NCBI GenBank assembly: GCA_947455695.1
Contig: CANGRN010000012.1
Span: forward strand, 1-12,586
Direction of reading: 5' to 3'
Source: Alphaproteobacteria bacterium
GTDB taxonomy: Bacteria > Pseudomonadota > Alphaproteobacteria > Micropepsales > Micropepsaceae
Length of the DNA stretch: 12,586 bases
A model generated the notes under the pieces. The model saw only the letters and a program-made list of their open reading frames with translations, did no database searches and was not told the origin of the DNA. Positions 1 to 12,586 of this stretch are shown piece by piece; the stretch's first letter is position 1, and every line of letters starts with the position of its first letter. The position numbers were made by a program, and so were the translations under genes.

Positions 1-1121
1 CGGCGCTGGGCCTGTCGGGCAGCCTGATCGTCTATGACCAGGAAATTGCAAACTTCTTTGATGCGCCGCCGCACGCCGCGACCGCCGGCATGCCGCTGCC
101 GCTGACCATGATCCAGGGCACGGCACGCCATATCGCCGAAGACAAGGGACTGGACGGCGGACAGATGCAGATCATGCCGCCGCAAAAGCCCCGCGATCCG
201 GTGGTGGTGCGCCTGGGCGGCATTTCACCGATGGGCGCCGTGCCGGGCGCCAGCCGCGAAGGCGGCGGTGAACGCCGCGGCGCGCGCCGCACCGAAGGTG
301 CGGGCGGCCGTGGTCTTCAGATCTTCATAGACCCGGTGTCCGGTGAAGTGCTGGGCAGCCGCAAATCCGTGCTGCCGCCCTTCCTGACATTCGCCCACCA
401 GCTGCACGGCAACTTCCTGATGAGCCGCGAGACCGGCCGCCCCCTTGTCGGCTGGCTGGGCGTGGCGATGTGCATATTGGGCATCACCGGCCTGGTGCTG
501 TGGTGGCCCAAGCGCGGGCAATGGAAATATGCGTTCAAGGTGCGCGCCGCCGCCCGGGGCCTGCGCTTTCACCGCGAGCTGCATGCCGCTACCGGCATCT
601 GGATATTTTTCGTCTTCATGGCGGTCAGCTTCTCGGGCGTGGTGATCGCCTGGCCGCAGACTTTGGGGCTGAATCCGCCGGGCTTCAATCCGCGCCAGAT
701 GCCCAAGGTCGCGGTGCAGGACACCAAGCGGCTGGGCGCCACCGAAGCGGTGATCGCGGCGCAGACCGCGATGCCCGATCTGGTGCCGCGCGTCATCACC
801 ATTCCGGCGCGCCCCGATGCGCCCATCACGGTCGGCTATCTCAGCAATGGCGCCATGAACGCCCAGGTGCTGGTCGATCCCTATAGTGGCAAGGTATTGC
901 AGGTGCGCGACCAGTCCGAACGCTTCCTGGCCTGGATGCGCCCGGTCCATGATGGCAGCCTGAACGGCGTGTGGCGCTTCCTGGTGTTCCTGTCGGGGCT
1001 GGTGCCGCTGCTGTTCGTCGTCACCGGCATCGTCATGTGGGCCAAGAAGCGCAAGCGCCGTATCCCCATGACCACCATGACCGACGAGGCGGCGTTGCCC
1101 GACGATGAGGACGAGGCATGA
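1..1121 (+). CDS. PepSY-associated transmembrane protein (PiuB-like), 5' truncated
   Basis: This is the C-terminal part of an inner-membrane PepSY_TM protein. The frame is open from base 3, so the true start lies before the window. The first visible residues (ALGLSGSLIVYDQEI) are the end of a first membrane helix, and starting at the ATG at 90 would lose it. Further helices lie at about nt 453-509, 600-659 and 972-1040, followed by a basic KKRKRR stretch and an acidic tail. Histidines sit near helices in HQLH (nt 396-407), HRELH (570-584) and PVHDG (about 945); in this family such residues are thought to bind heme or take part in iron reduction. A periplasmic loop at about nt 252-314 is rich in Arg and Gly. 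The 4-bp overlap with tonB and the family's usual company suggest ferric-siderophore or heme uptake, probably with a TonB-dependent receptor upstream. The family call is firm; the substrate is unknown. Confidence 0.85.
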   Translation, partial: ALGLSGSLIVYDQEIANFFDAPPHAATAGMPLPLTMIQGTARHIAEDKGLDGGQMQIMPPQKPRDPVVVRLGGISPMGAVPGASREGGGERRGARRTEGAGGRGLQIFIDPVSGEVLGSRKSVLPPFLTFAHQLHGNFLMSRETGRPLVGWLGVAMCILGITGLVLWWPKRGQWKYAFKVRAAARGLRFHRELHAATGIWIFFVFMAVSFSGVVIAWPQTLGLNPPGFNPRQMPKVAVQDTKRLGATEAVIAAQTAMPDLVPRVITIPARPDAPITVGYLSNGAMNAQVLVDPYSGKVLQVRDQSERFLAWMRPVHDGSLNGVWRFLVFLSGLVPLLFVVTGIVMWAKKRKRRIPMTTMTDEAALPDDEDEA

Positions 1122-1795
1122 CGGTCCAGTTCCCGCTCGGCGCGTTCGACCATGCCCATATGGTGCGCCCCCGGGCGCGCCCTGCGTTCGACCGCGCCAA
1201 GCTGGTCAGTATCGGCATCACCATCGCCATCCATGTCCTGATCCTGGTGGGTGCGCTGACGGTGGTGCAGGTGTCTCATACCAAGGTGATGCAGGAACTC
1301 TCGGTGCATATCGCGCCCCAGAAAATCGAACCGGCCAGGGAAATCGCCGCGCCGCCGCCCAAGCTTGTCCAGCCCGCCACCATGACCGTTCCGCTGCCCG
1401 AAGTGACGATCCGCACGGTGACGCCGCCGCCGGTCACAACACAGCCATCGGTGGCGCCCGCCGCGCCCACCCCGCCCGCTGCCGCGCCGAACGGCTCGGG
1501 CGAGGGGCGCGACAGTTTTCTGGGACGGCTGTTGGCCCAGCTCAACCGCTTCAAGCAGTATCCGCGCACCGCACGCCAGGCCCATATCGAGGGCGTGGTG
1601 ATGTTGCATTTCGTGATGGACGCGCAAGGCAAGGTGATCAGCTATGAGATCGCCAAGAGCAGCGGCCGCCCCGTCCTGGATACCGAGGCGCTGGCCTTGA
1701 TCCAGCGGGCCCAGCCCTTGCCGGCGCTGCCGGCGGATTTCCCCACCCGCACCCTGGACGCGATTGTCCCCATCGAGTTCACTCTGAATCACTGA
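1118..1795 (+). CDS. tonB: TonB family energy transducer
   Basis: This 225-residue protein passes proton-motive energy from an ExbB/ExbD complex to outer-membrane receptors. Residues 1-28 are cytoplasmic and basic. One membrane helix spans about residues 30-51, with T35 and H39 at the spacing of the SxxxH motif of TonB helices. A Pro/Ala-rich periplasmic linker runs from about 70 to 125. A TonB C-terminal domain fills about 133-225, with the typical YPRTAR at 148-153, a GVVMLHFVMDAQGKV strand pair and a final VPIEFTL strand. The ATG overlaps the stop of the PepSY gene (ATGA), and a GAGGA lies 6 bases before it, so the two are translationally coupled. No exbB or exbD is in the window. It is most likely a dedicated TonB for a siderophore or heme receptor; the symbol names the family and does not imply the housekeeping copy. 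Confidence 0.9.
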   Translation: MTVQFPLGAFDHAHMVRPRARPAFDRAKLVSIGITIAIHVLILVGALTVVQVSHTKVMQELSVHIAPQKIEPAREIAAPPPKLVQPATMTVPLPEVTIRTVTPPPVTTQPSVAPAAPTPPAAAPNGSGEGRDSFLGRLLAQLNRFKQYPRTARQAHIEGVVMLHFVMDAQGKVISYEIAKSSGRPVLDTEALALIQRAQPLPALPADFPTRTLDAIVPIEFTLNH

Positions 1796-1947
1796 GTTCA
1801 GGGCCGCCCGATTTCTGCGGCCAGACGCCTCAGCCGGGCTGGTTTTCCCGGCTTCCCCGCCCGCTTTGCGCGGGCAGAATCTGTGCTAGCCTTGCGACCG
1901 CTTGAGCCGGGAAACACCGGCCGGCGCACCGATTTTGGGGAGTTTTC
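1796..1947. other. Intergenic region between tonB and ridA-like gene
   Basis: This 152-bp gap separates the TonB operon from the sugar-acid operon and must hold the promoter for the latter. The first half holds three adjacent hairpins, listed separately. The second half has a weak candidate for an alphaproteobacterial promoter: TTGCGCG at 1866-1872, 12 bases, then GCTAGCCT at 1885-1892. This matches the Caulobacter-type consensus only partly. A clear ribosome-binding site, GGGGAG at 1937-1942, sits 5 bases before the ATG at 1948. No small gene was seen. Confidence 0.4.
1802..1875 (+). terminator. Three tandem GC-rich hairpins after tonB, possible terminator
   Basis: There are three perfect stems in a row. 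GGCCGC at 1802-1807 pairs with GCGGCC at 1817-1822. AGCCGGG at 1832-1838 pairs with CCCGGCT at 1847-1853, with loop CTGGTTTT. GCCCGC at 1859-1864 pairs with GCGGGC at 1870-1875, with loop TTTGC. They begin 7 bases after the tonB stop. None is followed by a proper T run, so a textbook Rho-independent terminator is not shown. They could instead stabilise the mRNA 3' end or assist Rho-dependent ending. Confidence 0.35.
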
Positions 1948-2424
1948 ATGGAAAAGAAGTCACGACGCGGCCTGTTGACCAAAACCGTGGCCGCCGCAGC
2001 CGCCGCCACGGCGCTGGCCGCCACTGGCGCCGATGCCAAGTCCAAGGCCGCGCCCAAGTTGACCAAGCGCTCGCCCTATCCGCCGCGCGATCCTTTGGCC
2101 GGCAAGCCGATGTTCAGCCGCGGCGTTGCTTACGGCAACATGATTTTCATCTCCGGTATCGGCTACCACAAGCCCGGCACCATCGCCGAGCACACCAAGG
2201 GCGTGCTGGACGAACTGTCCCAGGCCCTGAGCGATGCCGGTTCCTCGCTGCAGCAGTGCCTGAAGGTCACCGTTTTCTTGGCCGACCTGAAGGATTACGC
2301 GGCCATGAACGAAGTCTATAAGAGCTACGACTGGGGTGACGTGCCGCCGGTGCGCACCACCACGGCCGCGGCCGGCGTGCCGGGCAATTCGCTCGTGGAA
2401 ATCGACGTCATCGCCTACATCTAG
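1948..2424 (+). CDS. Tat-exported RidA family deaminase (enamine/imine hydrolase)
   Basis: This 158-residue protein has a RidA/YjgF domain at about 40-158 behind a twin-arginine signal peptide. The N-terminus reads KKSRRGLL followed by an Ala-rich hydrophobic stretch to about residue 30, with likely cleavage near ADA-K. RidA proteins are trimers that hydrolyse reactive enamines and imines, such as 2-aminoacrylate released by PLP enzymes, to keto acids and ammonia. The key arginine is present as R136 in PPVRTTT, and the C-terminal VEIDVIAYI carries the conserved glutamate E151. Ordinary RidA is about 130 residues and cytoplasmic, so export is the oddity. The start has GGGGAG 5 bases upstream. 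It opens a five-gene operon, 26 bp before a PLP enzyme that also carries a Tat signal, so it probably clears that enzyme's unstable product in the periplasm. The domain and signal are clear; the substrate is inferred. Confidence 0.88.
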   Translation: MEKKSRRGLLTKTVAAAAAATALAATGADAKSKAAPKLTKRSPYPPRDPLAGKPMFSRGVAYGNMIFISGIGYHKPGTIAEHTKGVLDELSQALSDAGSSLQQCLKVTVFLADLKDYAAMNEVYKSYDWGDVPPVRTTTAAAGVPGNSLVEIDVIAYI

Positions 2425-2450
2425 GCGCACATTACACAAGGGGTTCGGAT

Positions 2451-4037
2451 ATGGGTTTGTTCAGCAAGTGGTCGCGTCGCGATCTGTTGAAGAGTTCGAG
2501 TGCGGTGGCGGGTGTTGCTGCTGCGCCGGCGGCGGCCCTGGCCGCACCGGCCAAGCCCAAGGACATGGTCGTCCATTCAGGCACGATGGAGAAAAATCTC
2601 TTCACCGAAGTTGGCGTGCGCCCGATCCTGAATGCGCGCGGCACCTACACCATCATCAGCGGCTCGCGCTCGCTCCCCCAGGTCAAACAGGCCATGTTCG
2701 AAGCCTCGCATTACTACGTCCAGATGGACGAAATGATGGAAGGCGTGGGCAAGGAACTGGCGCGGCTGAATGGCTGTGAAGCGGCCATGGTCACCAATGG
2801 CTGCGAGTCGGCCATCGTGCTGGCGACCATCGCCTGCGTCGCCGGTTCCAATATCGAGAAGTGCCAGGCGCTGCCCTACATCAAGGGCAAGGACCAGGTG
2901 ATCATCCCCAAGCATTCGCGCAATCCCTATGACGTGGGCGTGCGGGTGGTGGGCGCCGAGCTGGTGGAAGTCGAGACGCCGGATCAGCTGCGCGCCAAGA
3001 TCTCGGGCCGCACCGCCATGATCTACATCATGTCGGACCCGGATGAAGCCAAGAGCGCCCTGCCGATCCAGACCGTCATCAACATCGCCAATGAAAAGAA
3101 AATCCCGGTATTCGTGGATGCGGCGGCCGAAGAACCGATGAGCCCCAACGTCTATATGAAGATGGGCGCCAGCTTTGTCGGCTATTCGGGCGGCAAGTGC
3201 CTGCGCGCGCCGCAATCCTCCGGCATGCTGCTGGGCAAGGCGGACCTGATCAAGGCGGCCTGGTTCCAGGCCTCGCCGCACCACAACTACGCCCGCGCCC
3301 TGAAATGCTCCAAGGAAGAGACGATGGGCCTGCTGGCCGCGGTGCGCCAGTGGTACAAGCGCGATCATGACGCCGAGCAGCGCATGTGGCGCGGCTGGAT
3401 GGAGCATGTGCAGGCGCGCCTGAAGGGCGTCAACGGCCTGACCTTCACCTACCTGGAGCCGCAGGGCTTGTCGAACCGCGCCACCCGGCTGCGCATCGAC
3501 TGGGATGCCGGCGAAGTCGGCATTACCGGCAATGAGCTGGAAAAGCGCCTGAACGACGGCTCGCCGCGCATCATGACCGAGCCCAGCACCGGCCACCGGC
3601 CTGACATGATGGCCAGCCACATCACCCTGATGCCCTACATGATGGATGCGGGCGACGAGAAGGTGCTGGCGGATGCGCTGCTCAAGATCTTCACCAACCC
3701 GGGCCATTATGAAAATCCGCCGATGCCCACGGGCGCGCCGGCTTCGGTGGCCGGCACCTGGTCGGTCACCATCCAGTATAGCTGTGGCCTGGGCGAACAG
3801 CATTTCACCCTGAGCCAGGACGGCGGCAACGTCACCGGCGACCACAAGGGCGAAATCTACAAGGGCGGCATGAAGGGCACGGTGCATGGCGACCTGGTCA
3901 AGCTGCAAAGCGCTATGCCGGTGGGCGGCAATTCCATCCGCTGGACCTTTACTGGAACGGTGCGCGGCAATTCCATGTCGGGCACTGTGGACATGGGTGA
4001 ATATGGTCCGGCGACCTTCTCGGCGGTCCGCGCCTGA
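2451..4037 (+). CDS. Tat-exported SelA/DgaE-like PLP-dependent enzyme, probable ammonia-lyase
   Basis: This 528-residue protein has three parts. Residues 1-33 are a textbook Tat signal (SRRDLLK at 8-14, then a hydrophobic Ala-rich stretch). About 45-425 is a fold-type-I PLP domain of the SelA-like COG1921 group. About 432-528 is a beta-rich extension. The likely PLP lysine is K249 in YSGGKCLRAPQSSGMLLG, and D223 in FVDAAAEEP should contact the pyridine nitrogen. Its nearest characterised relatives, from memory, are DgaE-type D-glucosaminate-6-phosphate ammonia-lyases, which eliminate ammonia from an amino acid or aminosugar acid. It is not selenocysteine synthase: it lacks that context and is exported. 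Tat export fits a protein that must fold around its cofactor in the cytoplasm. AAGGGG lies 7 bases before the ATG. Neighbours are an exported RidA and an exported amidohydrolase; COG3964 amidohydrolases and SelA-like proteins are known genomic partners. The exact substrate is unknown. Confidence 0.85.
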   Translation: MGLFSKWSRRDLLKSSSAVAGVAAAPAAALAAPAKPKDMVVHSGTMEKNLFTEVGVRPILNARGTYTIISGSRSLPQVKQAMFEASHYYVQMDEMMEGVGKELARLNGCEAAMVTNGCESAIVLATIACVAGSNIEKCQALPYIKGKDQVIIPKHSRNPYDVGVRVVGAELVEVETPDQLRAKISGRTAMIYIMSDPDEAKSALPIQTVINIANEKKIPVFVDAAAEEPMSPNVYMKMGASFVGYSGGKCLRAPQSSGMLLGKADLIKAAWFQASPHHNYARALKCSKEETMGLLAAVRQWYKRDHDAEQRMWRGWMEHVQARLKGVNGLTFTYLEPQGLSNRATRLRIDWDAGEVGITGNELEKRLNDGSPRIMTEPSTGHRPDMMASHITLMPYMMDAGDEKVLADALLKIFTNPGHYENPPMPTGAPASVAGTWSVTIQYSCGLGEQHFTLSQDGGNVTGDHKGEIYKGGMKGTVHGDLVKLQSAMPVGGNSIRWTFTGTVRGNSMSGTVDMGEYGPATFSAVRA

Positions 4038-4059
4038 CAAAACAAGAAGGGGTACGGGG

Positions 4060-5385
4060 ATGAAGAAGCTGATAGCGGCAAGCGCGCTGGCGCTGCTGAC
4101 GGCGTCGGGTGCGAACGCGCAACCGCCGCTTCCGGCCTATGACCTGCTGCTGCGTGGCGGCCATGTGATCGACGCCAAGAACCACATCGATGCGGTGATG
4201 GACGTCGCCATCAAGGACGGCAAGATCGCCAAGGTGGCATCGGGCCTCAAGGCCAGCGACGCCATCAAGACCATCGATGTGAAGGGGCTGTACGTCACCC
4301 CCGGCCTGATCGACCTGCATACCCACAATTACGTCGGCACGGGCGAAAGAAATTCCTATGCCGGCGATCTCAGCGTGCAGCCGGACGGCTTCACCTTCCG
4401 CACCGGCGTCACCACCGTGGTGGACGCCGGATGCTCGGGCTGGCGCAATTTCGAGGACTTCAAGGACAAGATCGTCGACCGGGCCAAGACCCGCATCCTG
4501 GTGATGCTCAATATCGTGGGCAAGGGCATGCGCTCGGGCAATATCCAGCAGGATTTGTCCGACATGGACGGCGAAGAAACCGCCAAGATGGCGCTGAAAT
4601 ATCCGGGCGTGATCGTCGGCATCAAGACGGCGCATTTCAATGGCCCGGAATGGAAGCCGGTGGAGCAGGCGGTGATTGCCGGCACCAGGGCCAATATTCC
4701 GGTGATGGTGGACTTCGGCGCCGACCGTCCGCAGCGTCCGCTGTATGATCTGCTGACCAAGAAGCTGCGGCCCGGCGACATCTACACCCACATGTATTCG
4801 GGCCTGCGCCATGAACAGGACCCGGTCACGAAGGGCCCGCAAAACGCCATGATCGAAGGCCGCGCGCGCGGCGTCTATTTCGATGCCGGCACCGGGGGCG
4901 GCAGTTTCAAATGGTCGCTGGCCGTTCCCTTCATCCAGCAGGGCTTCAAGCCGGACTCGCTGTCCACCGACCTGCATGTCGACAGCATGAACAGCACCAC
5001 CAAGGACATGCTCAATGTCGCGAGCAAGTTCATGGCGATGGGATTGCCCTTGTCCGAAGTGGTGGCCGAGATGACCGCCCATCCGGCGAAGGAAATCCGC
5101 CGCGAAGACCTGGGCAATCTGTCGGTGGGTTCGGTGGCGGACGTTGCCGTGCTGCGCCTGGAAAAGGGCAAGTTCGGCTTCATGGACATGGTCAATACGC
5201 GGCTGGACGGCAGCCAGAAGCTGGTGGACGAGCTGACCATCAAGGACGGCAAGATCGTCTATGACCTGAACGGCATGGAATCCCTGCCCTGGACGGCGCC
5301 GCAGGGCGATATTTCCCAGGACAAGCGCTGGACCAGCTGGCCCCGGCCCAAGCCGCGTCCCGATGACGGCGTGAAGCTGCACTAG
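4060..5385 (+). CDS. Secreted COG3964-type amidohydrolase/deacetylase
   Basis: This 441-residue metal-dependent hydrolase of the amidohydrolase superfamily begins with a Sec signal peptide (MKKLIAASALALLTASGANA, cleaved near A20-Q21). The ATG at 4060 is preceded by AGAAGGGG with a 7-base spacer; the open frame further upstream lies inside the previous gene. Expected binuclear-site residues are H87 and H89 in DLHTHN, K189 in VGIKT (candidate carboxylated lysine), H244 in YTHMYSG and D304 in STDLH. The beta-strand-5 position, normally histidine, is D218 in VMVDFG. The family is often misnamed dihydroorotase or adenine deaminase; from memory, studied COG3964 members cleave acetyl groups from (R)-hydroxy or D-amino acids. 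Placed 22 bp after a SelA-like gene, it probably releases a free amino or hydroxy acid for that enzyme in the periplasm. The family call is strong; the reaction is inferred. Confidence 0.85.
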   Translation: MKKLIAASALALLTASGANAQPPLPAYDLLLRGGHVIDAKNHIDAVMDVAIKDGKIAKVASGLKASDAIKTIDVKGLYVTPGLIDLHTHNYVGTGERNSYAGDLSVQPDGFTFRTGVTTVVDAGCSGWRNFEDFKDKIVDRAKTRILVMLNIVGKGMRSGNIQQDLSDMDGEETAKMALKYPGVIVGIKTAHFNGPEWKPVEQAVIAGTRANIPVMVDFGADRPQRPLYDLLTKKLRPGDIYTHMYSGLRHEQDPVTKGPQNAMIEGRARGVYFDAGTGGGSFKWSLAVPFIQQGFKPDSLSTDLHVDSMNSTTKDMLNVASKFMAMGLPLSEVVAEMTAHPAKEIRREDLGNLSVGSVADVAVLRLEKGKFGFMDMVNTRLDGSQKLVDELTIKDGKIVYDLNGMESLPWTAPQGDISQDKRWTSWPRPKPRPDDGVKLH

Positions 5386-5397
5386 GAGTTCGATTTG
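5384..5397 (+). promoter_or_regulatory. RBS fixing the TTG start of rhmD
   Basis: AGGAG at 5384-5388 overlaps the TAG stop of the amidohydrolase gene and lies 6 bases before TTG at 5395. No ATG or GTG with a comparable site is near, and the protein reads in register with RhmD from this TTG ([10 protein letters not shown]). This implies translational coupling to the gene before it. Confidence 0.75.
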
Positions 5398-6582
5398 GCT
5401 TTTCCGAAGATCAAGCATGTCCGCGCCTTCGTGGTGCGCGGCGGCGGCGCCGATTATCACGACCAGGGCGGCGGCCACTGGATCGACGATCACATCGCCA
5501 CGCCGATGTCGCGCTATCCCGAATACGCCGCAAGCCGCCAGAGCTTCGGCATCAATGTGCTGGGCACCTTGGTGGTGGAGATCGAAGCGGAAAACGGCGT
5601 CACCGGCTTTGCCGTGACCACGGGTGGTGAGCCCGCCTGCTACATCGTGGAAAAGCACCTGGCGCGATTCCTGGAAGGGCGCGACCCGGCCCAGACCGAG
5701 AAGATCTGGGACCAGATGTATTTTTCCACCCAGTATTACGGGCGCAAGGGACTGGTGATCAACGCCATCTCGGGCGTCGACCTGGCGCTGTGGGATTTGC
5801 TCGGCAAGCTGCGCGATGAACCGGTGCATCAATTACTGGGCGGCGCGGTGCGTGACGAGCTGACCTTCTATGCCACCGGCGCGCGGCCCGACCTGGCCAA
5901 GGAGATGGGCTTCATCGGCGGCAAGATGCCGTTGCATCATGGCCCCGCCGAAGGCGAAGAGGGCATGAAAAAGGCCCTGGCCGAGATCGCCACCATGCGC
6001 GAACGCGTGGGACCGGATTTCTGGCTGATGCTGGATTGCTGGATGGCGCTGGATTTGAACTACGCCACCAAATTGGCGACCCGGGCCTGGGAACAATCAG
6101 GCCTGAAATGGATCGAGGAGGCGCTGAGCCCCGATGATTACTGGGGCTACCGCGACCTGAAGAAGGCGGTGCCGCCCGGCATGCTGGTGACCACCGGTGA
6201 GCATGATGCCACCCGCTGGGGTTTCCGCATGCTGCTCGAGATGGACTGCTGCGACATCATCCAGCCCGATGTCGGCTGGTGCGGCGGTGTCACCGAGCTG
6301 ATCAAGATCGCCAACCTGGCCGAAAGCCACGGCAAGCTGATGGTGCCGCATGGCTCATCGGTCTACAGCTACCACTTCGTCATTACCCGCCATAACAGTC
6401 CTTTCGCGGAATTCCTGATGATGGCGCCCAAGGCCGACCAGGTCGTGCCGATGTTCGCGCCGCAACTGCTGGGCGAACCGGTGCCGAAGAACGGCCGTAT
6501 CAAGCTGTCGGAACTGGACAAGCCGGGCTTTGGCGTGGAGCTGAACCGTGAGGTCAAGCTGCACCGGCCTTATGCCCGGTAA
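5395..6582 (+). CDS. rhmD: L-rhamnonate dehydratase (enolase superfamily)
   Basis: It dehydrates L-rhamnonate, and usually L-lyxonate or L-mannonate, to 2-keto-3-deoxy-L-rhamnonate with Mg2+ in the cytoplasm (EC 4.2.1.90). The 395-residue protein matches remembered E. coli RhmD (about 405 residues) along its length, including the family blocks [51 protein letters not shown] and [11 protein letters not shown]. Metal ligands are D214 (LMLDCW), E241 (WIEEAL) and E269 (TTGEH). The catalytic His-Asp pair is H319 (VPHGSS) and D292 (QPDVGW), and H33 lies in the family's N-terminal capping segment. It has no signal peptide. It begins with TTG, 9 bp after the amidohydrolase gene. No KDR aldolase, rhamnose dehydrogenase or lactonase is in the window, so the rest of the pathway would be elsewhere. 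The match to RhmD is specific, far beyond a generic mandelate-racemase-family similarity. Confidence 0.93.
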
Positions 6583-6597
6583 TTCTGGTCCCCGCTG

Positions 6598-8208
6598 ATG
6601 CTGGACGGCGAATATGATTACATCGTGGTGGGGGCGGGGTCCGCCGGCTGCGTTGTCGCCAACCGCCTGTCCGCCGCTCCGAAAAACCGCGTGCTGCTGC
6701 TGGAAGCCGGCGGCCAGGATGACTGGATCTGGTTTCACATCCCCGTCGGTTACCTTTACCTGATTGGCAATCCGCGCAGCGACTGGATGTTCGAGACGCA
6801 GGCTGATCCGGGCCTGAATGGGCGCAAGCTCAACTATCCGCGCGGAAAGGCGCTGGGCGGATCGTCCAGCATCAACGCCATGCTCTCCATGCGCGGCCAG
6901 GTAGGCGATTACGACCATTGGCGTCAGTTGGGCCTGACCGGTTGGGGCTGGGACGATGTGAAGCCGGTCTTCCGGAGCCTGGACCGGCATTTCCTGGGCG
7001 ACAGCGAGCATCATCGCGCCGATGGCGAGTTGGCGGTGGATCAACCGCGGGTGCGCTGGGAAATATTGGATCGCATCATCGATGCCGCCGAAGAGACCGG
7101 AATTCCGCGCCGCGCCGATCCCAACACCGGCGACAATGAAGGCAGCTACTATTTCCACGTCAACCAGAAGCGTGGCCGGCGCTGGTCGGCGGCACGCGGC
7201 TTCCTGCACCCGGCACTGGGGCGCCCCAACCTGCGGCTGGAAGCCGATGTCGCGGTCGACAAGGTGCTGTTCGAGGGCAAGCGCGCCACCGGCGTGCGGT
7301 TCAAGCGTGGCAACGCGTGGGTGGAAGCGCGCGCCAAGGGCGAAGTGATCCTGTGTGCCGGCGCCATTGGTTCGGTGCAGATTTTGCAACGTTCGGGCGT
7401 GGGTCCATCCCAATGGCTGGGCGAATTAGGCGTGCCGGTTTTGCACGCTGCCGAAGGGGTAGGGCGCAATCTTCAGGATCACCTCCAGTTGCGCGCCATG
7501 TACAAGGTTCAGGGGGTGAAGACCCTGAATGAGATCTATTATTCGCCGCTGGGCCGCCCGCTCATGGGGCTGCAATATGCGCTGCTGCGGCGCGGGCCCA
7601 TGACCATGGCGGCGTCGCAGCTTTGCATCATCACCAGGTCCGATCCGTCACAGGAACGCGCCAATATCCAGTTTCACGTCCAACCCTTGTCGCTGGACCG
7701 CTTCGGCACGCCGCTGCACCGCTTTCCGGCCGTTACCGTCAGCCCCTGCAACCTGCGGCCCAGCTCGCGCGGCGAAGTGCGGATCACCTCCACGGCGCTG
7801 GACGCCAGTCCCAGCATCGCGCCCAATTATCTGTCCACCGACGAGGATCGCCGCATTGCCGCCCAGGCGCTGCGCCTGACCCGCACCTTGATGCGCCAAC
7901 CCGCCCTGGCGCAGTACCATCCGGAAGAATTCCGTCCCGGTCCTGAAGTGTCGGACAGCGATGCCGACCTTGTTCACGCCGCCGGCGATATCGGCACCAC
8001 CATTTTCCATCCTGTCGGCACGGCGAAAATGGGGCTGGCGAGCGATCCCTTCGCCGTGGTGGACGAACGCTTGCGGGTGCGCGGCCTGGATGGCTTGCGG
8101 GTGATCGATGCGTCGGTGATGCCGACGATTACGTCGGGCAACACCAACACCCCCACCATCATGATCGCGGCCAAGGGCAGCGAGATGGTGTTGCAGGACG
8201 CTAGGTAA
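6598..8208 (+). CDS. GMC family FAD-dependent oxidoreductase (choline/alcohol dehydrogenase-like)
   Basis: This 536-residue flavoprotein oxidises an alcohol group. The FAD-binding dinucleotide motif is [19 protein letters not shown] at residues 7-25, with the family LLLEAGG at 33-39. The first GMC signature region is [21 protein letters not shown] (80-100), and the second is [16 protein letters not shown] (255-270). The catalytic histidine is H471 in [10 protein letters not shown], with partner asparagine(s) N515/N517 in [15 protein letters not shown]. Length is normal for the family and there is no signal peptide. The ATG at 6598 lies 15 bp after rhmD; the ribosome-binding site is poor, so translation may depend on coupling. 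Relatives act on choline, aliphatic alcohols, PEG or sugars, so the substrate cannot be read from sequence. From context it may oxidise a polyol or sugar alcohol feeding the acid pathway. It is the last gene of the operon and overlaps garD tail to tail. Confidence 0.88.
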
Positions 8209-9745
8209 CAGGCGCTGGATTGAAAAGGGTCAGGTCATTGTGCAGGCCCCAGCGGTCGGCCCAGACTTGTTTCCTGCCGCTGGCCACGTCCAGCATCAGC
8301 TGGAACAGCTCCCAGCCCACCTGCTCGATGGTCTTTTCGCCGGTGGCGATGGGTCCGGCATCCAGGTCGATCAGATCGTTCCAGCGCTTGGCGAGCTCGC
8401 TGCGTGTCGAGACCTTGATCACCGGCACGGCGGCCAGGCCATAGGGCGTGCCGCGTCCGGTGGTGAAGACATGCAGGTTCATGCCCGAGGCCATCTGCAA
8501 GGTGCCGCAGACAAAATCGCTGGCTGGGGTGGCGGCGAACACCAGGCCGCGGCTGCGGACTTTTTCGCCCGGCGCCAGCACGGCATTGATGGCGCTGGTG
8601 CCCGACTTGGCGACCGAGCCCAGCGATTTCTCGATGATGTTGGACAGGCCGCCCTTCTTGTTGCCCGGCGTGGTGTTGGCGCCCCGATCCACTTCCCCCT
8701 TGGCCAGGTAATCGTCGTACCAGCGCATTTCGCGCACCAGGGCGTCGGCGACGTCCCTGGTCGCGGCGCGGGGCGTCAGCAGGTGGATGGCGTCGCGAAC
8801 CTCGGTCACTTCCGAGAACATCACCGTGGCCCCGGCCCGCACCAGCAGGTCGGCGCAATAGCCCAGTGCCGGATTGGCGGTCAGGCCGGAGAAGGCATCG
8901 CTGCCGCCGCACTGCATGCCCACGATCAGTTCGGCGGCCGGCACGGTCTCGCGCCGGCGCTTGTCCAATATCTTCAGCCGCTCCTCGACCCGTTCCATGA
9001 TGCCGTCGATCATGGCGCCGAAGCCGACATAGGCTTCGTCCTGCAGCCGCAGGGTGCCGGTTTCCTGCCCCTTGGGCAGCAACCGTTCGGGCACCAGCTT
9101 TTCGCAGCCCAGTCCCACCACCAGCACTTCGCCGCCGAAATTGGGATTGGCCGCCAGGTTCTGCAGGGTGCGGATCGGCACAATGGCGGCCGGGGCGTTG
9201 ATGGCGACGCCGCAGCCATAGGCATGGGTCAGCACCACCACGTCATCCACATTGGGATACTTGGGCAGCAGTTCTGCCTTGATGCGCTTGAGGGCAAATT
9301 CCATCGTGCCCGAAACGCATTGCACGCTGGTGGATACCGCCAGGATGTTCTTGGTTCCCACCGTGCCGTCGGCGTTGCGATAGCCTTCGAACGTATAACC
9401 CGTCAGCGGTTCAGGTTTTGCCGGCGGGCGCGTCGCCATCTCCAGCTGGTCCAGCGGCGGGGCGGTGCCCATCACAACATTGTCTTCATTGACCCAGTCG
9501 CCGCGTTTGATGTCGCCCTTGGCGGTACCGATCACTTCGCTGTAGCGGATGATGTTGCCGCCATCGGCGATGTCGGCCAGCGCCACCTTGTGGCCCTGGG
9601 GCACGAAATGGTTCAGCACCAGCCCGTCGGGAAAGGTGCTGCCGGCGGGAAGGCCCAGCCCGTTGACGATGATGGCGACATTATCGCCGGGCGCCACCTG
9701 GATGCGGCGCGGTTCTTCATGGGGCGGCTTGGCTTGGACGTTCAT
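8201..9745 (-). CDS. garD: D-galactarate dehydratase
   Basis: It dehydrates D-galactarate (mucate) to 5-dehydro-4-deoxy-D-glucarate in the cytoplasm (EC 4.2.1.42). The 514-residue protein follows remembered E. coli GarD (523 residues) almost block for block: [24 protein letters not shown] and IRYSEVIG in the N-terminal SAF domain, then [103 protein letters not shown] and [12 protein letters not shown], ending in FNPAPVT as in E. coli. This separates it from altronate dehydratase UxaA, which is usually split or differs in these blocks. It is the last gene of gudP-gudD-garD, 18 bp after gudD, with no clear Shine-Dalgarno site before the ATG; a TATAAT lies in that gap. Its last 8 bases overlap the end of the converging GMC gene. 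Product identity is very likely. Confidence 0.95.
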
Positions 9746-9763
9746 GGGGAAATTATAGCAGCC
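9746..9763 (-). promoter_or_regulatory. gudD-garD gap with a TATAAT box and no clear RBS
   Basis: Read on the minus strand, the gap is GGCTGCTATAATTTCCCC directly before the garD ATG. It has no AGGAG-like site; the nearest is AAGG at the gudD stop, about 15 bases away. TATAAT sits 6 bases before the ATG, but 17 bases further upstream the -35 position reads GTGTCT, a poor match. It may be chance, a weak internal promoter giving a near-leaderless garD mRNA, or simply a coupled start. Confidence 0.3.
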
Positions 9764-11101
9764 TTAGCGGACCAGACACGGCTTCTTGGGGTCGAATTTC
9801 CAGCCAGGGATCAGGAACTGCATGGCCGCGGCATCGTCGCGGGCGCCGTCGCCCAGGCTTTTGTAGGCGGCATGGGCTTTTTCCACCTCCGCAATGTCAA
9901 GTTCCACGCCCAGCCCGCCACGTTTGGGCACCTGCACCAGGCCGCCCTTGATCTGGAAGGGCTCCCTGGTCAGGCGTTGGCCGTCCTGCCAGATCCAGTG
10001 GGTATCGATGGCGGTGACGTTGCCGGGCGCCGCCGCCGCGACATGGGTGAACATGGCCAGCGATACGTCGAAATGGTTGTTGGAATGGCTGCCCCAGCGC
10101 AGGTCGCGGTCGGCGCACATCTGCGCGACGCGCACGCTGCCGGCCATGGTCCAGAAATGCGGATCGGCCAGTGGAATATCCACCGAGCCCAGGTCCATCG
10201 CATGTACCATCTGGCGGAAGTCGGTGGCGATCATGTTGGTGGCGGTGGGAAGGCCGGTGGCGCGGCGGAACTCCGCCATGATCTCGCGGCCCGAATAGCC
10301 GGCTTCGGCGCCGCAGGGATCTTCGGCATAGGCCAGGATATCGCCGCGGCCCTTGCACAGGCCAATGGCTTCCTTCAGCGACCAGGCGCCGTTGGGGTCC
10401 AGGGTGATGCGCGCCCTGGGGAAGCGCTTGGCCAGGGCTTCGATGGCCTTCATTTCTTCGGCGCCGGACAGCACGCCGCCCTTGAGCTTGAAGTCGTTGA
10501 AGCCATAGCGGGCATAGGCCGCCTCGGCGGTCGCCACGATGGCGGCCGGTGTCAGGGCCTCCTCGTCGCGTATCCTGATCCAGTCATCGCCCTTCTGGTC
10601 ATGGCGATAGGGCAGGTTGGTCTTCTTCCGGTCGCCGATGAAGAAGAGATAGCCAAGCATCTCCACCGCCTCGCGCTGCTGGCCATCGCCCAGAAGCGCA
10701 GCCACCGGTACATCCAGATGCTGGCCCAGAAGATCGAGCAACGCGCATTCTAGCGCCGCCTGGACATGCACGGTCACGCGCAGGTCGAAGGTCTGCAGGC
10801 CGCGGCCGCCGGAATCGCGGTCGGCAAAACGCTGGCCCACGGTGCTGAGAATGTTCTTCCAGTGGCCCAGTCCCTGGCCCACCACCAGGTCACGGGTTTC
10901 TTCCAGGGTCTGGCGAATTTTCTCGCCGCCCGGCACTTCGCCCACGCCGGTATTACCGGCGCTGTCGGTCAGGATCACCAGGTTGCGGGTGAAGAAGGGC
11001 CCGTGCGCTCCCGACAGGTTCAGCAGCATGCTGTCCTGGCCGGCGACCGGGACAACCTTCATCTCCGTCACGCGCGGCGCGCCGGTCTTGTCCTTGCTCA
11101 T
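9764..11101 (-). CDS. gudD: D-glucarate dehydratase
   Basis: It dehydrates D-glucarate (and L-idarate) to 5-dehydro-4-deoxy-D-glucarate in the cytoplasm (EC 4.2.1.40), as a Mg2+-dependent member of the enolase superfamily. The 445-residue protein is co-linear with remembered E. coli GudD (446 residues), and the catalytic residues keep the same numbers: K205 and K207 in FKLKGG, metal ligands D235 (LDPNGAW), E260 (AYAEDPC) and N289 (TATNMIATD), D313 (LADPHF) and H339 (WGSHSNNH). [11 protein letters not shown] near the N-terminus and the GARDDA and IPGWKFD blocks near the C-terminus are also typical. These rule out the non-catalytic GudX paralogue, which lacks catalytic residues. The ATG is 10 bp after the gudP stop, with a GAGGA overlapping that stop, so the genes are coupled. 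It shares its product with GarD next to it. Confidence 0.96.
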
Positions 11102-11111
11102 AAAAACGTCC

Positions 11112-12434
11112 TCAGGCTGTTTTCAGAACCACGCGTTTCAGCTCGCCGGCGATCACGCCATACCCGATCATGGCGACGATGGAATGGGCGAACAGGAAGA
11201 CCAGCGCCAGGTTCCAGTCATTGCCGGTGGCCTTCAGGATGTAGCCGATCACGATGGGCGTGAAGATGCCCGCCGCATTGCCGAACAGGTTGAAGACGCT
11301 GCCGGCCAGGCCGGTGGCCTCGCGCGGCGCCACGTCGCTCATCACCGCCCAGCCCAGCGCCGCCACGCCCTTGCCGAAGAAGGCGATGGACATGAACAGC
11401 ATGATCATGGCCTGGGTGTCGGTATAGTTGCAGGCCAGGATGGCGCAGGAGATGACGAGGCCGATCAGGATCGGAATCTTGCGCGCCGCGGAAAGCGACA
11501 CGCCCTTTTTCAGCAGCATGTCCGACAGCACGCCGCCCAGCACGCCGCCGACAAAGCCGGCGATGGCAGGGCCGGCCGACATCAGGCCCGCCTTGGCCAC
11601 GCCCATGTGCCGGGCCTCCATCAGGTAGATGGCGAACCAGGTGGAATAAAAATAGGTCAGCGCGGTAATGCAGTATTGCGCCAGGTACACGCCCAGAAGC
11701 ATGCGGTTGGCCAGAAGCTGGCTGACGATGCCCCAGCGGATCGGCTGCGCCGCCGAAGCCGGCTTGTCCAGATTCACCAGCGCGCCGCCTTCCTCGATGA
11801 AGGCATACTCGCGCTTGGAGATGTGCTTGTGGCGCGCAGGTGCGTGCACCACCATGGCGAAGATCACCGCGCCGGCAAATCCGATAACACCCATCCAGAA
11901 GAACACCGACTCCCAGCCATGATATTGCGCCAGCCAGCCCATCAGGGGGTTGAAGGCGACCACCGAGAAATATTGCGAGGCGTTGAAGATGGCGCTTGCC
12001 GTGCCGCGCTCGGCCTTGGGAAACCAGTTGGCGACGATGCGGGCATTGGCGGGAAAACTGGGCGCTTCGGCAAAGCCCAGCGCCAGGCGCAGGATGAACA
12101 GGCTGATCATCACCGGGACGAAGGACAGGTAGGACACGAAAGCCTGTAGCCCGGTGAAGACCGCCCAAAGTCCGATCGCCCAGAGATAGACCGGCCGCGA
12201 GCCATATTTGTCCAGCAGCGCGCCGCCGGGAATCTGCGCGATGGCATAGGACCAGGCGAAGGCCGAGAACAGGTAACCCAGCTGCACCGGGTCGAGATGG
12301 AATTCGGCCGCCAGCGGCTTGCCCGCCATCTGCAAGGTGGCGCGGCTGGCATAGGCGATGGACGAGATCATGAACAGGACCGCGATGATCCAGAAACGGA
12401 CGTGACTGTTGCGTGTCTCGCTGATTGGCGTCAT
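11112..12434 (-). CDS. gudP: D-glucarate/D-galactarate MFS transporter
   Basis: This is a 440-residue 12-helix permease of the anion:cation symporter family (GudP/GarP/DgoT type), which imports sugar diacids across the inner membrane with protons. GudP-like blocks run throughout: [16 protein letters not shown] after helix 2, [21 protein letters not shown] in helix 4, [54 protein letters not shown] and [17 protein letters not shown]123 and R31 match residues tied to proton coupling and substrate binding in DgoT. The usual helix-1 aspartate before that arginine is Ser30 (YASRATL instead of YADRATL). GGAG lies 5 bases before the ATG. It is first in the operon with gudD and garD, which makes glucarate and galactarate the natural substrates. 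The family call is very sure; the exact diacid preference is inferred from neighbours. Confidence 0.93.
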
Positions 12435-12498
12435 GGCTGCTCCACCCTCTGGCTAGATGGACCGCTCGCGGGTCCTTCGCCTTGAAAAGGCTGATAAA

Positions 12499-12527
12499 AT
12501 CTAGGGATAGAAGCTTGGCCCGTCCAA
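12499..12527 (-). promoter_or_regulatory. Possible gudP operon promoter
   Basis: On the minus strand TTGGAC (12522-12527) and CTAGAT (12499-12504) are 17 bases apart. CCTAGATT resembles the alphaproteobacterial -10 form GCTANAWC; the -35 is a partial match. This would give a leader of about 60 nt before the gudP ATG. It is the best candidate in the 152 bp upstream of gudP, but weak by itself. Confidence 0.35.
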
Positions 12528-12529
12528 GC
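12513..12529. promoter_or_regulatory. Inverted repeat overlapping the putative -35, possible operator
   Basis: GCTTGG at 12513-12518 and CCAAGC at 12524-12529 form a perfect 6-bp inverted repeat around CCCGT. It covers the proposed -35 hexamer on the minus strand, a position that suits a repressor site. Which regulator family might bind cannot be told. Confidence 0.35.
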
Positions 12530-12541
12530 CAAAGGTTCAAG

Positions 12542-12568
12542 CGATCAATGCCCGCTTAGCATTGATCG
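12542..12568. promoter_or_regulatory. Perfect 9-bp inverted repeat upstream of gudP, possible operator
   Basis: CGATCAATG at 12542-12550 and CATTGATCG at 12560-12568 are perfect inverted copies separated by CCCGCTTAG. The half-site centres are 18 bp apart, close to two helical turns, so a dimeric regulator could bind one DNA face. It starts 14 bp upstream of the proposed -35 of the gudP operon. There is no T run on either strand, so a terminator is unlikely. A divergent gene may begin just beyond (GGAG at 12568-12571, ATG at 12583), but the window ends there. Confidence 0.5.
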
Positions 12569-12586
12569 GAGCGGCTATTCCGATGC

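Follow-up and report, generated by a model that had tools for sequence, protein, structure and literature searches.

A stretch of 12,586 nucleotides from an alphaproteobacterium of the family Micropepsaceae (GenBank assembly GCA_947455695.1, contig CANGRN010000012.1, positions 1 to 12,586 of the forward strand; hereafter the window) contains three adjacent genes that encode a RidA-family protein, a DgaE/SelA-like pyridoxal phosphate (PLP) enzyme designated PLP1, and a COG3964-type amidohydrolase. We give close to even chances to the view that these proteins form an exported deacetylase, ammonia-lyase and RidA module acting outside the cytoplasm on N-acetyl-hexosaminic acids. Related loci in Acidobacteriaceae suggest N-acetylglucosamine (GlcNAc) and/or N-acetylgalactosamine (GalNAc) oxidised at C1 as candidate substrates. 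The proposed location, substrate and reactions are all derived from the export signals and their conservation, the linkage of the genes, the catalytic residues of the deduced proteins and gene co-occurrence.

All three genes are located on the forward strand. The RidA gene (1948..2424, 158 amino acids) is separated by 26 bp from the PLP1 gene (2451..4037, 528 amino acids), which is followed after 22 bp by the amidohydrolase gene (4060..5385, 441 amino acids). The RidA protein matched PF01042 with 77.5 bits (cut-off 27.3) and remained below the cut-off of the subfamily model TIGR00004 (71.7 versus 106.25), and the amidohydrolase matched NF006689 with 407 bits (cut-off 371). The N-terminus of RidA, MEKKSRRGLLTKTVAAAAAAT (as translated), carries the twin-arginine translocation (Tat) motif SRRGLL, that of PLP1, MGLFSKWSRRDLLKSSSAVAGV (as translated), the Tat motif SRRDLLK, and that of the amidohydrolase, MKKLIAASALALLTASGANAQ (as translated), a Sec signal. 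A sequence-only reading of the window had proposed this set of two Tat proteins and one Sec protein encoded side by side, and both the open reading frames and the signals were confirmed. Judged from these N-termini, export of RidA, PLP1 and the amidohydrolase is likely. The second RidA match of the same genome is located in a 133-amino-acid open frame with little room for a signal.

Signals were called with sequence rules of our own for Tat and Sec-like N-termini and not with a trained predictor. Homologues were inspected for the best 120 of 1468 PLP1 matches and the best 120 of 1989 RidA matches. A twin-arginine motif near the N-terminus was present in all 120 PLP1 homologues and in 118 of the 120 RidA homologues, the exceptions being P0147, with a late start, and P0194, with LRRGLL; since these homologues are the top matches by similarity, the counts are not independent. 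In genome loci, counted over the best 80 of 210 loci from species-level genomes, 49 of 50 RidA and 74 of 77 PLP1 proteins satisfied the Tat rule, the three failing PLP1 proteins showing the arginine pair by eye and three further copies being cut by contig ends. The amidohydrolase N-termini were Sec-like in 39 of 44 and Tat-like in two cases (one further copy was contig-cut), and the three proteins failing both rules have a hydrophobic N-terminus by eye. Additionally, a second PLP paralogue, PLP2, satisfied the Tat rule in 29/29 cases, and the RraA proteins encoded nearby had a Sec-like N-terminus in 33/33. Among the other gene calls of the same loci, 54 of 711 passed the Tat rule and 279 of 711 the Sec-like rule, so that the Tat result is strong and a Sec-like call carries little weight by itself. 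An earlier signal rule was dropped: it missed many RidA proteins (31/50), because lysines break up the hydrophobic stretch, and 116 of 762 background genes passed it as Tat-like.

With their conserved arginine pair and hydrophobic segment, RidA and PLP1 are predicted to be Tat-exported proteins, and the expectation of the sequence-only reading that homologues keep the signals held for near relatives. A cytoplasmic pathway, with N-termini that fail to direct export in the living cell, is very unlikely. Export is predicted from sequence and a linked oxidase, described below, lacks a visible signal, but the signals are kept on RidA, PLP1, PLP2, the amidohydrolase and RraA, four of these in two phyla, and the low background rate of the Tat rule likewise speaks against a cytoplasmic pathway.

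Catalytic residues are highly conserved in each of the three proteins. The metal site of the amidohydrolase (HxH/Lys/His/Asp) aligns with that of PDB 2ogj; HxH, K189 and H244 are kept in 45/45 proteins and D304 in 44/45. PLP1 matched DgaE (PDB 7lc0) with 114 bits, its K249 aligning with the lysine of the YSGAK motif and its D223 with the aspartate of DAAAE; K249, the PLP lysine, as well as D223, R282, K285 and K288 are kept in 80/80 proteins. DgaE, Cap15 and SelA, the proteins that PLP1 resembles, are presumably of fold-type I. The column of RidA Arg136, which we take to be the active-site arginine, contains arginine in all 50 aligned RidA proteins. Outside the DgaE-matching part, PLP1 has a C-terminal eight-stranded beta-barrel domain (3735..4034) that was modelled by AlphaFold2 with a mean predicted local distance difference test (pLDDT) score of 95.1; a search of this domain against the PDB gave nothing at E<=0.001, the top match being a quinohemoprotein amine dehydrogenase domain at 3e-3. 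A weak match to the barrel (28% identity, E 3.9e-4) occurs elsewhere in the same genome (G000:C45:7024-7305).

The substrate of a DgaE-type elimination has to be a 2-amino-3-hydroxy acid, and that of a retro-aldolase such as RraA a 4-hydroxy-2-keto acid. Judged from this family chemistry, both requirements would be satisfied by a 2-amino-3,4-dihydroxy acid, in other words a 2-amino-2-deoxy-aldonic acid. In the proposed pathway, the Sec-exported amidohydrolase would take off the acetyl group to give this acid, and the Tat-exported PLP1 would eliminate the 3-hydroxyl to an enamine/imine, as suggested by the relationship to DgaE and the conserved PLP lysine. RidA, with its conserved arginine, would then hydrolyse the enamine/imine to a 2-keto-3-deoxy acid and ammonia.

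With respect to gene linkage, only loci with enough flank were counted. In the Alphaproteobacteria, RidA and the amidohydrolase were each encoded near PLP1 in 10/10 loci, and all three genes were adjacent in 9/9. In close Acidobacteriota (38 loci), RidA was near in 33/37, the amidohydrolase adjacent in 22/35 and the complete set present in 20/35, whereas in distant loci (n=31) RidA was near in 5/31 and both partners in 2/24. The linkage is accordingly not general across the PLP1 family but holds for near relatives; the alphaproteobacterial genome G565 contains PLP1 and the amidohydrolase, with RidA absent from the region examined. Conservation of the three-gene linkage across genomes, as anticipated from the window, was thus found in near relatives of two phyla and failed in the distant loci and in G565. 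The usual acidobacterial gene order is RraA-(PLP2)-RidA-PLP1-amidohydrolase, and the close acidobacterial loci contain PLP2 in 26/36, an outer-membrane beta-barrel protein in 26/36, RraA in 31/36 and a lactonase in 18/38 cases. Families of locus neighbours were assigned in part, with 18 proteins scanned by Pfam and 10 by NCBIfam.

Within the genus of the window, good PLP1 matches were detected in 6 of 25 genomes, and in none of 16 other relatives; a seventh genome of the genus, G550, gave a 38% partial PLP1 match that scores as PLP2-like. The module is an accessory trait in this genus. The PLP1 tree placed 12 alphaproteobacterial rows in one clade (100/99) within Acidobacteriaceae, in which L029 and L017 branch first and retain RraA, and the amidohydrolase tree placed 11 alphaproteobacterial rows in one clade (100/100), again within Acidobacteriaceae. 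The module apparently came from Acidobacteriaceae into Alphaproteobacteria, a direction that is only inferred because both trees are midpoint-rooted. The patchy spread in the genus would fit a chance adjacency of unrelated exported proteins, but this explanation is barely credible with a gene order kept in two phyla and two trees that each unite the alphaproteobacterial rows.

The PLP2 protein (e.g. L014, 8149-9432) is a Tat-bearing paralogue of the DgaE family without the C-terminal barrel, encoded upstream of RidA, and might serve a sugar epimer. A second, divergent RidA-PLP-amidohydrolase set of exported-looking proteins is located downstream of the first in L025 (17295-20736), L058 (17337-21034) and L063 (14841-18275); its RidA and PLP proteins carry Tat motifs, and PF01042 was confirmed for the RidA of L025 and L063. 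The chromosome of Terriglobus roseus DSM 18391 contains two loci (L042 and L044) of the same layout, about 460 kb apart, with near-identical PLP1 proteins.

The suggestion of hexosaminic acids as substrates comes from the acidobacterial neighbours. A recurrent neighbour is a flavoprotein with FAD_binding_4 and BBE domains, one representative of which (L056) aligned end to end (residues 1-509) with the N-acetyl-D-hexosamine oxidase HexNAcO (PDB 7zzk) at 711 bits, the next match reaching 268 bits; GlcNAc and GalNAc are reported as the best substrates of HexNAcO, and its biological function was called unclear (PMC9299179). With both strands considered, 15 of the 38 close acidobacterial loci, two of the 31 distant ones and none of the 11 alphaproteobacterial loci contained an oxidase gene within 9 kb of PLP1. 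In the next larger set of the PLP1 tree, five of ten acidobacterial rows have the oxidase in the locus (L012, L013, L024, L030 and L036), and it is absent from the locus in L014, L022, L025, L058 and L063. A sample of 150 Acidobacteriaceae genomes, some of which also supplied loci, yielded 16 genomes with the oxidase (E<=1e-100), 15 with PLP1 (E<=1e-80) and 13 with both (hypergeometric P = 3e-14, ignoring shared ancestry); in 8 of these 13 the two genes lie within 10 kb of each other, according to coordinates read by hand. The amidohydrolase, looked for in the 16 genomes with the oxidase, was present in 15 of them. Beyond this family the oxidase is rare: among 398 genomes of Pseudomonadota, two encode it (E<=1e-80), with 40% identity.

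The lactonase neighbour belongs to PF10282, is often encoded beside the oxidase, has a Tat-like N-terminus in the copies read and gave weak matches to gluconolactonase-type structures. In L051, L052 and L056 the lactonase gene is located directly upstream of PLP1, preceded in L052 and L056 by the oxidase gene, with RidA and the amidohydrolase absent in the fetched flank. The RraA proteins resemble 4-carboxy-4-hydroxy-2-oxoadipate aldolase-type proteins, always under the family cut-offs; the motif G-X20-RD, which presumably marks active aldolases, is present in 33/33, and a longer RraA motif was matched in 0/33. The most complete arrangement was observed on plasmid pACIX902 of Granulicella tundricola, where one same-strand run starts with a sensor kinase, a response regulator and an outer-membrane protein, continues with RraA, PLP2, RidA, PLP1, the amidohydrolase, the lactonase and an oxidase homologue (51% identical to the L056 oxidase), and ends with a hypothetical protein and a GH35 beta-galactosidase. 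In Acidobacteriaceae, the oxidase homologue and the Tat lactonase would make the acid upstream of the module, and pyruvate and glyceraldehyde would be formed from the keto acid by the exported aldolase of the RraA type. The sequence-only reading had guessed at an N-acylated aminosugar acid; the oxidase-like, lactonase and aldolase neighbours favour this guess for a substrate that is itself deduced from gene context, and its interpretation as a whole is partly supported.

Two further explanations bear on these neighbours. The first, which we consider rather doubtful, extends the proposed module to a whole N-acetylhexosamine oxidation pathway outside the cytoplasm of Acidobacteriaceae, with the oxidase as a hitchhiker and the core moved once into Alphaproteobacteria, including the lineage of the window. 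The oxidase would fold with its flavin adenine dinucleotide (FAD) inside the cell and be exported bound to the Tat lactonase encoded beside it, and oxidase, lactonase, deacetylase, PLP ammonia-lyase, RidA and RraA would together yield periplasmic acetate, ammonia, pyruvate and glyceraldehyde. The oxidase and lactonase genes overlap by 4 bp in L056 and are close together in L052 and L026, a closeness that allows co-export and is no demonstration of it. In the second explanation, the exported module serves to scavenge N-acyl-D-amino acids, for example N-acetyl-D-serine, with deacylation followed by dehydration of the 3-hydroxy amino acid by PLP1 and completion by RidA. The chemistry would be identical, and OngC of the ong pathway compared below is reported to take D-serine and D-threonine too (PMC9537276). 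This explanation is nevertheless quite unlikely: it leaves unexplained why an N-acetylhexosamine oxidase homologue, a lactonase and a member of a retro-aldolase family are linked to the module, and no peptidase was found among the 18 Pfam-scanned neighbour proteins, a minority of the neighbours.

Several observations weigh against an action of the module on N-acetyl-hexosaminic acids. Of the 17 acidobacterial loci with the oxidase gene, 12 have it on the strand opposite to PLP1 and five on the same strand; no signal peptide was seen by eye in L087 or in the 16 oxidase copies whose N-terminus was read, the remaining copy, L031, being split. In the Acidobacteriaceae genomes G399, G435, G517, G530 and G537, the oxidase and PLP1 genes are separated by a large distance or by a contig boundary; PLP1 occurs without the oxidase in G421, G499 and the genome of L014, which is outside the sample, and the oxidase without PLP1 in G440, G467 and G497. 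In the Alphaproteobacteria, oxidase and lactonase were near the module in 0/11 loci and RraA in L017 and L029 only. No RraA was detected at E<=1e-20 in G564 and G565, which contain PLP1 and are 98-100% complete, or in the genome of the window, which is 58.8% complete; the nearest relative, G567, encodes an RraA homologue with a Sec-like N-terminus on a contig other than that of the module. The window's neighbouring genes point to L-rhamnonate, glucarate and galactarate. With respect to PLP1 itself, both DgaE family models were missed by far (TIGR01437, 168 versus a cut-off of 385 bits; NF047797, 141 versus 600), and its predicted structure is of poor quality (pLDDT 69.9). Besides DgaE, PLP1 is close to the structure of Cap15 (PDB 8t7j; 101 bits), an oxygen- and PLP-dependent enzyme that ranked first in a fold search with this poor model and sets a precedent for oxygen chemistry in the PLP1 family.

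It is accordingly conceivable, although unlikely, that the module has another extracytoplasmic polyhydroxy amino acid as target, or that PLP1 is oxygen-dependent like Cap15, with the target in the lineage of the window perhaps tied to deoxysugar catabolism. Besides the rank and score of Cap15 relative to DgaE, the gene that follows the amidohydrolase gene fits this alternative, as do neighbours in two related loci. This gene (5395..6582, forward strand, TTG start) encodes an enolase of the L-rhamnonate dehydratase family (NF011968, 761 bits, cut-off 393; PDB 2oz3, 750 bits). Adjoining the module in L011 (13031-16439), L-rhamnose 1-dehydrogenase and RhaT were identified above cut-offs; with a gene of the L-rhamnonate dehydratase family and one that matched mutarotase weakly, they are neighbours that suggest a non-phosphorylative rhamnose route. 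In L006, the genes for the amidohydrolase and the rhamnonate dehydratase flank that of an alpha-L-fucosidase (PF01120; 9788-11416) with a KR-type signal-like N-terminus. Against a different target or chemistry, a RidA partner would suit an enamine-releasing lyase more than an oxidase, and the acidobacterial gene context is that of amino-sugar oxidation. Upstream of the module, proteins with export-signal-like N-termini include enolase-superfamily members in L010 (4455-8054) and L011 (4335-7991) and proteins resembling pyrroloquinoline quinone (PQQ) dehydrogenases in L010, L011 and L020 (5863-7863); of these, the L011 pair was the one that was family-scanned.

The remaining genes of the window fall on both sides of the module. 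The L-rhamnonate dehydratase-family gene follows the amidohydrolase gene after 9 bp and is itself followed after 15 bp by a GMC oxidoreductase gene (6598..8208, forward strand; PF00732 and PF05199), a spacing that places both genes in the same operon as the module; no signal was seen by eye at the N-terminus of either protein. The reverse strand encodes a galactarate dehydratase (8201..9745; TIGR03248, 897 bits, cut-off 731), a glucarate dehydratase-like protein (9764..11101; TIGR03247, 826 bits, slightly under the cut-off of 829) and a sugar-acid-type transporter of the major facilitator superfamily (11112..12434; TIGR00893, 376 bits, cut-off 395). In the lineage of the window, the keto acid may enter the cell via a sugar-acid transporter, which is a guess. 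Upstream of the module, PepSY_TM and TonB genes (window 3-1795) likely form an iron-uptake unit apart from it, since the TonB gene ends 152 bp before the RidA gene and in L008 the PepSY_TM/TonB genes come after those of a TonB-dependent receptor and of a PKHD-type hydroxylase. Promoter and terminator scans of the window gave scores never above those of shuffled sequence.

If the proposed module is real, common soil bacteria would carry out several steps of amino-sugar breakdown, with a PLP lyase assisted by RidA, outside their cytoplasm, N-acetylhexosamine oxidase would gain a pathway and hence a biological function, and a second, unrelated breakdown route for oxidised chitin units would exist. 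It would also be possible to test the function of RidA in a compartment where literature searches gave no earlier description of it: no account of an exported RidA or of an acidobacterial hexosaminic-acid pathway was found among titles and abstract openings, with most subscription journals outside the scope of the search.

Compared with known systems, the amidohydrolase shares its family model and metal-site residues with COG3964 amidohydrolases such as the enzyme of PDB 2ogj, which we take to hydrolyse acetyl-(R)-mandelate, and differs by its export signal. DgaE, a D-glucosaminate-6-phosphate ammonia-lyase with the aldolase partner DgaF, has the sequence family, PLP lysine and DAAAE motif in common with PLP1 as well as the logic of combining a lyase with an aldolase; PLP1 is 24% identical to it in the fold-search alignment and adds a Tat signal and the C-terminal barrel. 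The substrate of DgaE is phosphorylated, and such a substrate would not be expected for PLP1 outside the cytoplasm. The closest functional parallel is the ong pathway of Pseudoalteromonas prydzensis, in which a deacetylase (OngB), a PLP deaminase (OngC) and a RidA protein (OngD) are reported to be likewise encoded in one cluster and to convert GlcNAc1A to keto-deoxy-gluconate, the same reaction as proposed here, with each of the three required for growth on GlcNAc1A (PMC9537276; PMC12017989). The ong enzymes are reported there as cytoplasmic, whereas those of the module have export signals, called by rule. Moreover, OngB is described as a D-aminoacylase-like amidohydrolase of subtype V (Cys/His/His) and OngC as a fold-type III PLP enzyme, whereas the deacetylase of the module has the COG3964-type site of 2ogj and PLP1 resembles DgaE, Cap15 and SelA in both sequence and fold. 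The module is best read as analogous, and not homologous, to the cytoplasmic ong pathway.

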